Assembly (NCBI RefSeq): GCF_900103175.1
Contig: NZ_FNLF01000002.1
Coordinates: 1,936,136 to 2,000,135, forward strand
Origin: Tsukamurella pulmonis
Lineage (GTDB): Bacteria > Actinomycetota > Actinomycetes > Mycobacteriales > Mycobacteriaceae
DNA: 64,000 bases
Direction of reading: 5' to 3'
Below the pieces are notes generated by a model that did no database searches, had not been told where the DNA came from, and saw only the letters and a program-made list of their open reading frames with translations. Shown piece by piece: positions 61,021 to 64,000 of the stretch. The stretch's first letter is position 1, and the number at the start of each line of letters is the position of its first letter. A program made the position numbers and the translations under genes.

Positions 61021-61026
61021 ATGCTA
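61021..61026 (-). promoter_or_regulatory. Putative leaderless -10 (TAGCAT) for the two-domain GNAT-like gene
   Basis: On the minus strand TAGCAT ends 6 nt before the GTG at 61014. It overlaps the stop codon of the citrate synthase gene upstream. Confidence 0.45.
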
Positions 61027-62136
61027 CTGCAAAATTCGGCCGGTGTAGCGCGCGGACGGGCGGATGATTTTTCCCTGCGCGACCTGCTCGAGGACGTTGG
61101 CCGTCCACCCGACGACGCGTGCCGTGCCGAAGGTGGGCGTGAACATGGACGGCGGCAGTCCCACCTCGCTCATCACCACCCCTGCGTAGTACTCGACGTT
61201 CGCGTACAGCCGCCGACCCGGCTTGAGCTCGTTGATCGCGGTCTCGATCTCCGACTCCACTTGCAGCGCCTGGCGGACCAGCACCGAGTCGTAGCGGCGG
61301 GCCACGCCCTTGAGCAGCTCCGAGCGCGGATCGTGCGTGCGGTAGACGGCGTGCCCGAAGCCCATGATCCGCTCGTCCCGGGCGATCTTGTCGCGCACCC
61401 AGTCCCGGGTGTTGCTCGGGTCTCCGATCTCGTCGAGCGCGGCCAGTGCGCGGCTCGGCGCACCGCCGTGCAGTGGACCGAGGAAGGCGCCCAGGGCGCC
61501 GAGCAGGCACGACGCCATGTCCGAGCCGGTCGACGCGATCACCCGCCCCGCGAACGTCGAAGCGTTGAAACCGTGATCGATGGTGGCGACGAGGTAGGTC
61601 TGCAGTGCCGCGGCGTCGTCCGGTGCGACGTTCCCCGTCGCCATGCGCAGGTAGTCGGCGGCGTGGCCGGCAGCGGGGTCGGCGTCCACGGGCGCCTCTC
61701 CGCGGGCCAGACGGTGTGCCGCCGCCAGGATCGTCGGCGTCAGCGCGGCGTACCGCAGTGCGGCCGCCGTACGTTCGTCCTCCGGCAGGTCCATGAGCGG
61801 CCGCTCACCCAGGCCGAGCGCCGCGAGCGCGACGCGGAGGGCGTGCATGGGCTCGGTCCCGGGTCGAACGGTCGCCCGCAGCAGGTCGACGGTGCGTCCG
61901 TCGAGCTCGCGGAGAGCGCCCACCCGTCGTCGGAAGGCGGCGGCCTCGTCGGGCCGGGGGAGTGCACCGAACAGCACGAGGTGCCAGGCGTCCTCGAAGT
62001 CGACGTCCCTGGCCAGGGCTGTGGCGTCGTGGCCGCGGTAGTGGAAGTAGCCCTCTTCGCCTCGGACATCGCCGAGTTCGGTGTCGGTCACGATGACGTT
62101 CTTGAGCCCCGCCGGGGCGATGAGCGGTGTGGTCAT
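61024..62136 (-). CDS. Citrate synthase family protein (citrate/methylcitrate synthase-like)
   Basis: A 370-residue enzyme of the short type I bacterial citrate synthase family, condensing an acyl-CoA with an oxo acid. The catalytic histidines are His223 in LHGGAPS and His262 in MGFGHAVYR. The position of the usual Asp holds Glu315 (ANVEYYAG), a conservative change. Actual substrate (acetyl- or propionyl-CoA) is not determined. It starts with ATG at 62136. It diverges from an HTH-citrate synthase fusion across 55 bases holding a 16-bp palindrome, so it is probably under that protein's control. Confidence 0.88.
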   Translation of the reverse strand: MTTPLIAPAGLKNVIVTDTELGDVRGEEGYFHYRGHDATALARDVDFEDAWHLVLFGALPRPDEAAAFRRRVGALRELDGRTVDLLRATVRPGTEPMHALRVALAALGLGERPLMDLPEDERTAAALRYAALTPTILAAAHRLARGEAPVDADPAAGHAADYLRMATGNVAPDDAAALQTYLVATIDHGFNASTFAGRVIASTGSDMASCLLGALGAFLGPLHGGAPSRALAALDEIGDPSNTRDWVRDKIARDERIMGFGHAVYRTHDPRSELLKGVARRYDSVLVRQALQVESEIETAINELKPGRRLYANVEYYAGVVMSEVGLPPSMFTPTFGTARVVGWTANVLEQVAQGKIIRPSARYTGRILQ

Positions 62137-62151
62137 GGCCCGAGTCTGGGC

Positions 62152-62179
62152 GATGTTGATCAACATCCGCAATGTTGAT
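62152..62179. promoter_or_regulatory. Palindromic operator candidate between the two citrate-synthase-domain genes
   Basis: GATGTTGATCAACATC at 62152-62167 is a perfect 16-bp palindrome; ATGTTGAT repeats as a further half-site at 62172-62179. It is an AT-rich island centred 24 nt from one start codon and 33 nt from the other. Confidence 0.7.
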
Positions 62180-62191
62180 TGAATCAAGGTC

Positions 62192-63265
62192 GTGGACAGA
62201 TGGATCACGACCTCGGAAGCGGCCGAGCGCCTCGGGGTCAAGCGCGGGACGCTGTACTCGTACGTGAGCCGGGGCGTGCTGCATTCGCAGCGCATGCCCG
62301 GCCAGGCCGAGTCGCTCTTCGATCGCACGCAGGTCGACTCGCTCGCCGCCGCGAAACACGACGGCCGCCGCGAAGCGGACCGCCTGCTGCGCTTCCGAGC
62401 CGTGACCACGCGCGTCTCCGCGCTCCGCGGGGACGCGCTCTCCCTGCGCGGCCGACCGATCGCGCAGGTGTGCGCGGAGATGGACTTCGCCGCCGCCGCG
62501 CGTTTCGCCCTCGAGGCGCGGACCGCGGAGGCGCCGCCCGTCGTCGATCTCGGCGCGGCGCGGGCCGTAGCGCTGGAGCGCAGGATCCCGCTCGCCGTCG
62601 CGCTGCTCGCGGCGCAGGACCCGTTGCGGGCGGACCGTTCCCAGGTGGCAGAACGGGCTCTCGGACTGTTGCCGGTGCTCGCCGAGCTCGTCCCCGAGGT
62701 CCATCTCGAGCACCCCTGGGTCGACGCGCTCGCGACCTGCCTCATCGACAACGGGCTCGCGGCGTCCACGACTGCCGCCCGGGTCGCGGCGTCGGCGCGG
62801 GCGGGTCTGTACGACGCACTGCTCGCGGGGTACGGGGCGATGGCGGGGGTGCTGCACGGCGGTGCGCCGGCCGCGGCCTACGCGATGCTCGGGCGGGTGC
62901 TCGCGGGCGGCGACGTGGACGCGGCGATCGCCGACGCCTCCTGGGGTGGGCACCTGTCGGGGTTCGGACACATCGTCTACACGGGCGAGGATCCGCGGGC
63001 CACCGTCGTCCTGGGGATGATTCGCCAGGACCGGCCCGATGCCCCTGCTCTGCGGGCGGTCTCGGCGCTCGCGGACCGCGTCGGCCGGGCGGTGAACATC
63101 GATCTGGCGGGCGCCGCGGTCGCGCACGCGCTGGGGCTGCCGGAGCGCGCCACAGAGGTGCTCTTCCAATACGGGCGCACCGTCGGGATGGCGGCGCACA
63201 TCGCCGAGGAGTACGAGGAGGCGCCGCTGCGCTGGCGCGGCGCCAACAGTAGCGCCGTGCGCTGA
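62192..63265 (+). CDS. HTH-citrate synthase fusion, probable regulator
   Basis: A 357-residue protein. The N-terminal about 55 residues are a MerR/excisionase-like winged helix (TTSEAAERLGVKRGTLYSYV, then a wing ending FDRTQVDSL). The rest is a citrate synthase fold with His222 (LHGGAP), His260 (GFGHIVY) and Asp304 (NIDLAG) all present. This suggests a metabolite-sensing regulator that may still bind or turn over substrate. It starts with GTG at 62192 with AAGG nearby. It faces the citrate synthase gene over a palindrome. Confidence 0.82.
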   Translation: MDRWITTSEAAERLGVKRGTLYSYVSRGVLHSQRMPGQAESLFDRTQVDSLAAAKHDGRREADRLLRFRAVTTRVSALRGDALSLRGRPIAQVCAEMDFAAAARFALEARTAEAPPVVDLGAARAVALERRIPLAVALLAAQDPLRADRSQVAERALGLLPVLAELVPEVHLEHPWVDALATCLIDNGLAASTTAARVAASARAGLYDALLAGYGAMAGVLHGGAPAAAYAMLGRVLAGGDVDAAIADASWGGHLSGFGHIVYTGEDPRATVVLGMIRQDRPDAPALRAVSALADRVGRAVNIDLAGAAVAHALGLPERATEVLFQYGRTVGMAAHIAEEYEEAPLRWRGANSSAVR

Positions 63266-63308: not shown

Positions 63309-64000
63309 ATGAGTGCCGTAGTCTCGCCCACCCGTCGCGCCCTGTTCCGTGGCGCGGGACTGCTCGGTGCGGCCGGTCTGGCGGCAGCGTGCGGCGCGGG
63401 CGGGGGTTCGGTGGTCGAGTCCGGGCGGCGCACCGTCGACCATCTGCGGGGGAGTACCGCGGTGCCCGACGATCCGCGGCGCATCGTCGCGGTCGGCTTC
63501 AGCGATCAGGACCCCGTTCTCGCGCTCGGTGGGCGTCTCGTCGGGGTGACCGATTGGTACGGCGACTACGAGTTCGCCACCTGGCCGTGGGCGCAGGCGC
63601 AATTGGGGGATCAGCGGCCCGCCGTGTTGAACAAGGGGAAGTTCACCGGGACCCCCGACTACCGCTACGAGGAGATCGCCGCGCTGCGCCCGGATCTGAT
63701 TCTGGGTCTCTACACCGAGATGAATCCCGATCAGTACGAGCGGCTTTCGCGGATCGCGCCCACCGTCGGGCCGCCCCCGGGCTACAAGGAGTTCACCGCG
63801 CCGTGGGATGCCGCGACCCGGCTCGCGGGCGATGCCCTCGGGCGGCGGGAGGCGGCCGAGCGTGCGATCACTGCTGTGAACGAGCGGCTCTCGGCGGCAC
63901 GAGCGGCACACCCCGAGTTCGCCGGGCGAACGGCGGTCGTCGTCGAACGGTTCGAGCCCGGAGCGACCTTCGTGCGCTCCCCGGGTGATCCCCGCTCACG
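63309..64000 (+). CDS. Siderophore-binding lipoprotein (ABC transporter), N-terminal part
   Basis: Substrate-binding protein of the FepB/FecB type, running off the window end with 230 codons visible. The signal peptide has a twin-arginine motif (TRRALFRG) and the lipobox AAAC, so Tat-exported lipoprotein is likely. AVPDDPRRIVAVGFSDQDPV, IAALRPDLILGL and RLSRIAPTVG are typical. ATG at 63309 has AGGAG directly upstream, overlapping the end of an iron box. It is distinct from the binding protein at 56251-57189; permease genes may follow outside the window. Confidence 0.9.
   Translation, partial: MSAVVSPTRRALFRGAGLLGAAGLAAACGAGGGSVVESGRRTVDHLRGSTAVPDDPRRIVAVGFSDQDPVLALGGRLVGVTDWYGDYEFATWPWAQAQLGDQRPAVLNKGKFTGTPDYRYEEIAALRPDLILGLYTEMNPDQYERLSRIAPTVGPPPGYKEFTAPWDAATRLAGDALGRREAAERAITAVNERLSAARAAHPEFAGRTAVVVERFEPGATFVRSPGDPRS

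Follow-up and report, generated by a model that had tools for sequence, protein, structure and literature searches.

HTH-CS, a probable family of transcription factors with a citrate synthase fold, and its conserved operator beside a divergent citrate synthase gene in Tsukamurella pulmonis

Background

The MocR/GabR regulators (PMC5320631, PMC4944035) join a helix-turn-helix (HTH) domain to a full enzyme fold that serves as the sensor, are broadly spread among bacteria and have conserved operators. The protein considered here, which we call HTH-CS, resembles them in these respects and differs in its parts, since MocR/GabR combine a GntR-type winged HTH with an aminotransferase fold (PLP), whereas HTH-CS combines HTH_17 with Citrate_synt, for which no cofactor link is known, in contrast to the PLP-enzyme fold of MocR/GabR. 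HTH-CS has neither the GntR winged HTH nor the PLP aminotransferase fold and thus falls outside that family. BzdR (PMC3602430) is likewise an enzyme-derived regulator, composed of an HTH and a shikimate-kinase-like effector domain that binds benzoyl-CoA, and the loss of enzyme activity was part of its evolution; it differs from HTH-CS in having an unrelated sensor domain, and most HTH-CS members retain the catalytic residues. As these systems are similar in logic but built from different domains, HTH-CS would be a new family of a known kind of regulator.

In Streptomyces coelicolor, sco5831 and sco5832 ('citA3/citA4') are two putative citrate synthase genes; MtrA binds between them and both are raised in the mtrA mutant, while the text on SCO5831/SCO5832 mentions neither a helix-turn-helix nor DNA binding (PMC12323332). 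This pair is divergent and citrate-synthase-like, as is the one described here, and we assigned it to the same family by annotation and arrangement rather than by alignment.

With the citrate synthase/2-methylcitrate synthase family (PF00285, TIGR01800) HTH-CS shares the fold and, mostly, the catalytic residues, but it has an added HTH, is linked to an operator, carries Asn187 in Tsukamurella and lies far below every NCBIfam cut-off (among the curated NCBIfam models, the fusion exceeded only that of the short excisionase domain). Annotated records name it citrate synthase or 'citrate synthase family protein', and in the open-access literature we found no report of an HTH plus citrate synthase architecture or of a citrate-synthase-type regulator. 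The domain pair is presumably listed in domain databases.

Results

The divergent gene pair

We analysed a 64,000-nt stretch of the genome of T. pulmonis (contig NZ_FNLF01000002.1, positions 1,936,136 to 2,000,135), hereafter the window, in which HTH-CS and a partner citrate synthase are divergently encoded (Table 1). An earlier note on this DNA had described such a pair separated by 55 bases, and both open reading frames and the gap (62137-62191) are present in the sequence. The partner is matched by Pfam Citrate_synt over its full length (8.4e-103) and is one of 4 genes with a citrate synthase domain in the genome (4.78 Mb), HTH-CS being another. It has Glu at the position of the catalytic Asp375 (pig numbering), as does the CitA-like citrate synthase of the same genome, and Asn at the column of H336, where its relatives have His. 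A role of the partner in the methylcitrate cycle was considered and judged unlikely: no PrpD (PF03972) was found in the genome, so the partner is probably outside any such cycle.

Table 1. Features of the HTH-CS locus, in window coordinates
Feature	Position	Strand	Basis
HTH-CS (predicted transcription factor, 357 aa, GTG start)	62192..63265	+	ORF, Pfam, AlphaFold model
HTH_17/excisionase-type DNA-binding domain, residues 4-51	62201..62344	+	Pfam HTH_17 4.1e-07, TIGR01764 6.5e-08, alignment
Citrate-synthase-fold sensor domain (predicted), residues 52-350	62345..63241	+	AlphaFold model, fold search, alignment
Partner citrate synthase (370 aa, predicted regulated target)	61024..62136	-	ORF, Pfam
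16-bp perfect palindrome GATGTTGATCAACATC	62152..62167	.	Sequence; sits in spacer of predicted citrate synthase promoter
Deep-conserved predicted operator GCAAT-G-TTGAT-TGA-ATCAA = GCAATGTTGATTGAATCAA	62169..62187	.	Comparative alignments
Predicted -35 TTGCGG, overlapping operator	62167..62172	-	Position conserved in 50/50 representatives
Predicted -10 CAGACT, 18 bp after -35	62143..62148	-	Comparative spacing

A record of Tsukamurella tyrosinosolvens (L160, NZ_LR134461.1) has the gene order of the window, including the GNAT and siderophore-binding neighbours. The latter, a siderophore-binding ABC transporter protein, lies directly downstream of HTH-CS (63309-64000) in the same order in both species, and at the HTH-CS locus of Agrobacterium fabrum C58 a FecR/TonB siderophore receptor cluster is nearby. 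The T. tyrosinosolvens record is titled 'plasmid 19', and its order matches that of the window, which lies on a 4.7-Mb contig; it is possibly a chromosome fragment wrongly labelled as a plasmid.

Domains, fold and active-site residues of HTH-CS

In the family alignment the HTH carries the signature YxYVSRG. Its MerR-type scores were just above the cut-off for MerR_1 (23.4 against 21.6) and below it for MerR. The Pfam match to Citrate_synt covers only the C-terminal half (residues 171-343, 2.8e-40). The whole citrate synthase fold is found in residues 52-350 of the AlphaFold model (mean pLDDT 76.8; HTH about 87-93), with a VIA Z of 26.1 over 293 residues against 1a59, the list of fold matches being filled by the citrate synthase domain and hence informative for that part and not for the HTH. 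M. tuberculosis CitA and PrpC are among the nearest structures that have been solved; a sequence search for a solved HTH-CS structure returned none, its matches being citrate synthases and one citryl-CoA lyase.

Within the sensor domain we labelled N187, H222, H260, R269, D304, R329 and R349. The statement of the earlier note that the fusion keeps all three catalytic positions (His/His/Asp, pig 274/320/375) is right as regards His222, His260 and Asp304, but it is incomplete: at the position of the His that orients oxaloacetate (pig His238, E. coli His229) the window protein has Asn187, which makes normal catalysis unlikely. That position is His in 134 of the 153 aligned family members, and the Asn state occurs in 19/133 actinomycete members, the window protein included. 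The triad is complete in 145/153; a single change at H260 is seen in L010, L083, L065 and L084, and two or three triad residues are lost in L164, L167, L177 and L181, all of which keep the HTH and the arginines. Arg197, Arg269, Arg329 and Arg349 are invariant in 153/153 members, including these four. Arg269, Arg329 and Arg349 align with E. coli R314, R387 and R407, which are known carboxylate-binding residues of citrate synthase. As the arginines are invariant while the triad is sometimes lost, the strictest selection acts on carboxylate binding and not on catalysis.

L177, L181 and L167 (on plasmids of Massilia, Acidovorax and Caballeronia) form a separate clade with two or three catalytic residues lost, and their neighbours are ring-hydroxylating oxygenase/ferredoxin genes or a TPP-enzyme gene; these are apparently pure regulators.

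Distribution in actinomycetes

HTH-CS was found in 16/16 genomes of the genus. In 19 other genomes sampled from the same family there was no match scoring above ordinary citrate synthases; elsewhere it is scattered through the order and present in several further families of the phylum. One large-genome family of the class (probably Streptomyces) has it in most of the genomes sampled, and many named records of Streptomyces, Actinoplanes and Micromonospora contain it as well. A divergent citrate synthase gene is upstream, on the opposite strand, at 127/134 actinomycete loci. In our tree, partner citrate synthases sampled from Actinomycetota and Pseudomonadota form a single supported clade (97), and the Tsukamurella-type HTH-CS is a long branch, which may have one origin with the remaining HTH-CS proteins; the own_citA row of this tree is unreliable (branch length 6.25).

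The palindrome and the conserved operator

The earlier note had placed a 16-bp perfect palindrome with an extra half-site between the genes. The palindrome is indeed present, and GATGTTGATCAACATC has its sole exact copy in the 4.78-Mb genome here; with at most 3 mismatches allowed, 3 matches were found in the window against 0.06 expected. As the key site, however, only part of it stood the comparison: its core TTGATCAA (62156-62163) is invariant in all 18 sequences from the genus and two near relatives, while the outer arms vary, and in more distant sequences its place is often taken by single half-sites. The palindrome is thus accessory, being confined to the genus and those near relatives. 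It is the 'extra half-site' TTGATTGAATCAA, that is TTGAT-N3-ATCAA at 62175-62187, which together with GCAAT makes up the deeply conserved operator.

With no motif assumed in advance, every 5-mer inverted repeat was counted in 123 intergenic regions. The top repeat was TTGAT-N3-ATCAA (82/123), and no repeat exceeded 2 in shuffled sequences; the aligned consensus reads GTCAATrTTGATtsaATCAATrT. Since raw counts are inflated by relatedness, we let the argument rest on representatives below 72% identity and on the cross-phylum cases. The composite TCAATnTTGAT-N3..7-ATCAA (at most 3 mismatches, within 300 bp upstream) was present in 56 of the 63 representatives, against 0-2 in dinucleotide-preserving shuffles and none within coding genes; with no more than 2 mismatches allowed, it was found at 0/22 ordinary citrate synthase loci. 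No obvious operator site was seen at L013, L069 and L164, and a recognisable one was retained at L167 and L177, whose triad is broken. The comparison of homologous pairs for a conserved palindrome, suggested in the earlier note, came out in favour of its reading, with TTGAT-N3-ATCAA as the element kept across pairs.

In a pattern search of the 4.78-Mb genome for a possible regulon, the operator sequence TTGATNNNATCAA occurred exactly once, in the 62137-62191 intergenic region, and the combined two-site element (palindrome plus operator) also once, so the switch is probably dedicated to this one gene pair.

The predicted citrate synthase promoter

Read on the target strand, GTCAA of the operator is TTGAC, a -35 element. 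Among 50 representatives the -35 hexamer starts with TTGAC in 41, TTGAT in 7 and TTGCG in 2, and a -10-like NANNNT follows at 17 bp (30) or 18 bp (16), hence in 46/50, against 0-3 of 50 at other spacings from 14 to 21 bp. The -10 is mostly weak, TANNNT being found at 17 or 18 bp in only 9/50. An extra half-site lies in the spacer between -35 and -10 in 30/50 representatives, against 3.2 expected, and in Tsukamurella this is the palindrome. MerR regulators have their operator within a long promoter spacer of 19-20 bp; at HTH-CS loci the spacer measures 17-18 bp and the main operator lies outside. A generic promoter scan gave nothing; the predicted promoter falls short of consensus thresholds, and its assignment is based on comparative spacing. 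From the -10 to the ATG of the citrate synthase there are 6 nt, which makes a leaderless mRNA likely.

In the window the operator ends 4 nt ahead of the HTH-CS start codon, and across loci this distance ranges from 3 bp to over 100. Since the spacing to the target is fixed while the distance to the HTH-CS start varies, the fixed relation of the operator is to the target promoter.

The operator in other phyla

By tblastn into plasmid records, on which the Pseudomonadota spread rests, HTH-CS was also found in Pseudomonadota and Deinococcota. In these phyla only some loci (Agrobacterium, Chelatococcus) have a citrate synthase as divergent neighbour; other neighbours are a CoA transferase, a 2-hydroxyacid dehydrogenase operon, a pyruvate carboxyltransferase, a TPP enzyme, a ring-hydroxylating oxygenase operon and a DUF2332 gene. 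The operator is present at nearly all loci with such other neighbours, with a half-site gap of 6 or 7 bp, for example as GTCAATATTGATTGATATAATCAATA in A. vitis, GTCAATCTTGATTAAGTCGATCAATAT in Azospirillum and GTCAATCTTGATTCCAGAATCAAG in Deinococcus, so it follows the fusion and not the citrate synthase. Across Actinomycetota, Pseudomonadota and Deinococcota the code is TCAAT-n-TTGAT-N3/6/7-ATCAA: the half-sites are unchanged and the gap measures 3, 6 or 7 bp depending on the lineage (L066-L079 versus L161-L180), which suggests an altered spacing of the two HTH domains.

Burkholderia cepacia and Paraburkholderia sprentiae have a cluster of four genes on one strand in which HTH-CS comes last. 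No site was found directly upstream of HTH-CS in these two; the operator is instead at the divergent promoter of the cluster, nearly 3 kb away, and in B. cepacia it reads GGTCAATATTGATTGGTTCGATCAACATG, with a second copy in the opposite orientation. This site at a distant operon promoter is the strongest single argument that HTH-CS reads the operator. On the plasmid of B. cepacia ATCC 25416 the cluster (D-glycerate dehydrogenase/SDR/MFS/VOC/HTH-CS) is present twice (L172, L173).

The idea of a self-contained switch acting on its paralogue, put forward in the earlier note, is therefore supported by the comparison, but it is too narrow for the family, in which the operator also stands beside other genes.

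Discussion

At the level of sequence, HTH-CS unites a DNA-binding domain, a ligand-binding-type enzyme fold and a conserved operator; the sequence itself shows this architecture together with the conserved gene pair and operator and the fixed promoter geometry. The most likely role of HTH-CS is that of a local transcription factor with a citrate-synthase-fold sensor, and we hold it highly likely that it is a one-component factor that binds the operator, senses through this fold and controls both the citrate synthase and itself. That an enzyme-derived transcription factor controls its divergent paralogue through the intervening site, as the earlier note proposed, has in the conserved pair, operator and promoter geometry strong comparative support, and the rise of both sco5831 and sco5832 in the mtrA mutant was counted on the same side. 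On the other side we counted that the TTGAC part of the operator is also simply a -35 element and that a triad kept in 145/153 members also fits an active enzyme.

DNA binding, the ligand and the sign of regulation we infer as follows. The N-terminal excisionase-type HTH would bind the TTGAT/ATCAA half-sites, and the C-terminal citrate synthase fold would dimerise and act as the sensor. The protein would occupy the operator and, in Tsukamurella, also the TTGATCAA site inside the palindrome; as the operator adjoins the -35 of the partner gene and ends so close to the HTH-CS start, it should control both genes together. The most likely signal would be a 2-oxo, di- or tricarboxylate, namely oxaloacetate or citrate, and an acyl-CoA may take part as well. 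An operator placed immediately ahead of the -35, together with a weak -10, fits an activator, and a half-site within the spacer fits a repressor. We lean slightly towards a scheme in which HTH-CS represses itself and, depending on the ligand, activates the target from the operator ahead of the -35, with repression exerted through the half-site inside the promoter.

Simple repression, in which HTH-CS on the operator and the promoter spacer blocks both genes and departs when the ligand binds, is a serious alternative, though we rate its chances somewhat below even. It would account for the in-spacer half-site, seen far more often than expected and represented in Tsukamurella by the perfect palindrome, and for an operator that ends 4 nt before the HTH-CS start, but the site that is conserved universally abuts the -35 from upstream, a common location for activators, and the -10 is mostly weak (TANNNT in 9/50). 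We consider it unlikely that HTH-CS is a bifunctional trigger enzyme, that is an active citrate or methylcitrate synthase which also binds DNA and whose catalysis reports substrate supply. The earlier note had raised this possibility, and the retained triad and the full citrate synthase fold agree with it; for the window protein it is made doubtful by Asn187 in place of the oxaloacetate-orienting His, by the four relatives without two or three catalytic residues that keep the HTH and the arginines (L167 and L177 with a recognisable operator), and by the three other citrate synthase genes of the genome. The window protein is probably a poor enzyme at best, and other members could be active as enzymes.

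Very improbable, in our judgement, is that the intergenic sequence belongs to another regulator such as MtrA, or represents two face-to-face promoters, with HTH-CS being an enzyme paralogue with an idle HTH. MtrA does bind the S. coelicolor intergenic probe (PMC12323332), and other factors could thus make use of part of the conserved sequence; TTGAC, moreover, is a -35 element; against this, TTGAT-Nn-ATCAA recurs beside HTH-CS with different neighbours in Pseudomonadota and Deinococcota, lies at the promoter of the Burkholderia operon and did not turn up at the 22 ordinary citrate synthase loci.

With its operator beside relatives in at least three phyla, HTH-CS very probably represents a family of metabolic gene switches that has gone unrecognised and that derives from a central enzyme. 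It is also likely, in our estimate, that this undescribed cross-phylum family uses one operator code, reads carboxylates or acyl-CoA and runs a paralogous citrate synthase or local catabolic operons, with some members being enzymes and some having lost catalysis. As the widespread family is annotated merely as citrate synthase, hundreds of probable regulators and their targets would be mislabelled. Because the family contains both triad-complete and triad-lost members, the transition from enzyme to regulator can be tested directly. Citrate synthase stands at the entry to the TCA cycle, and if our reading is true, bacteria would gain a direct gene-level readout of oxaloacetate/acyl-CoA status, and the family would offer a natural biosensor scaffold.
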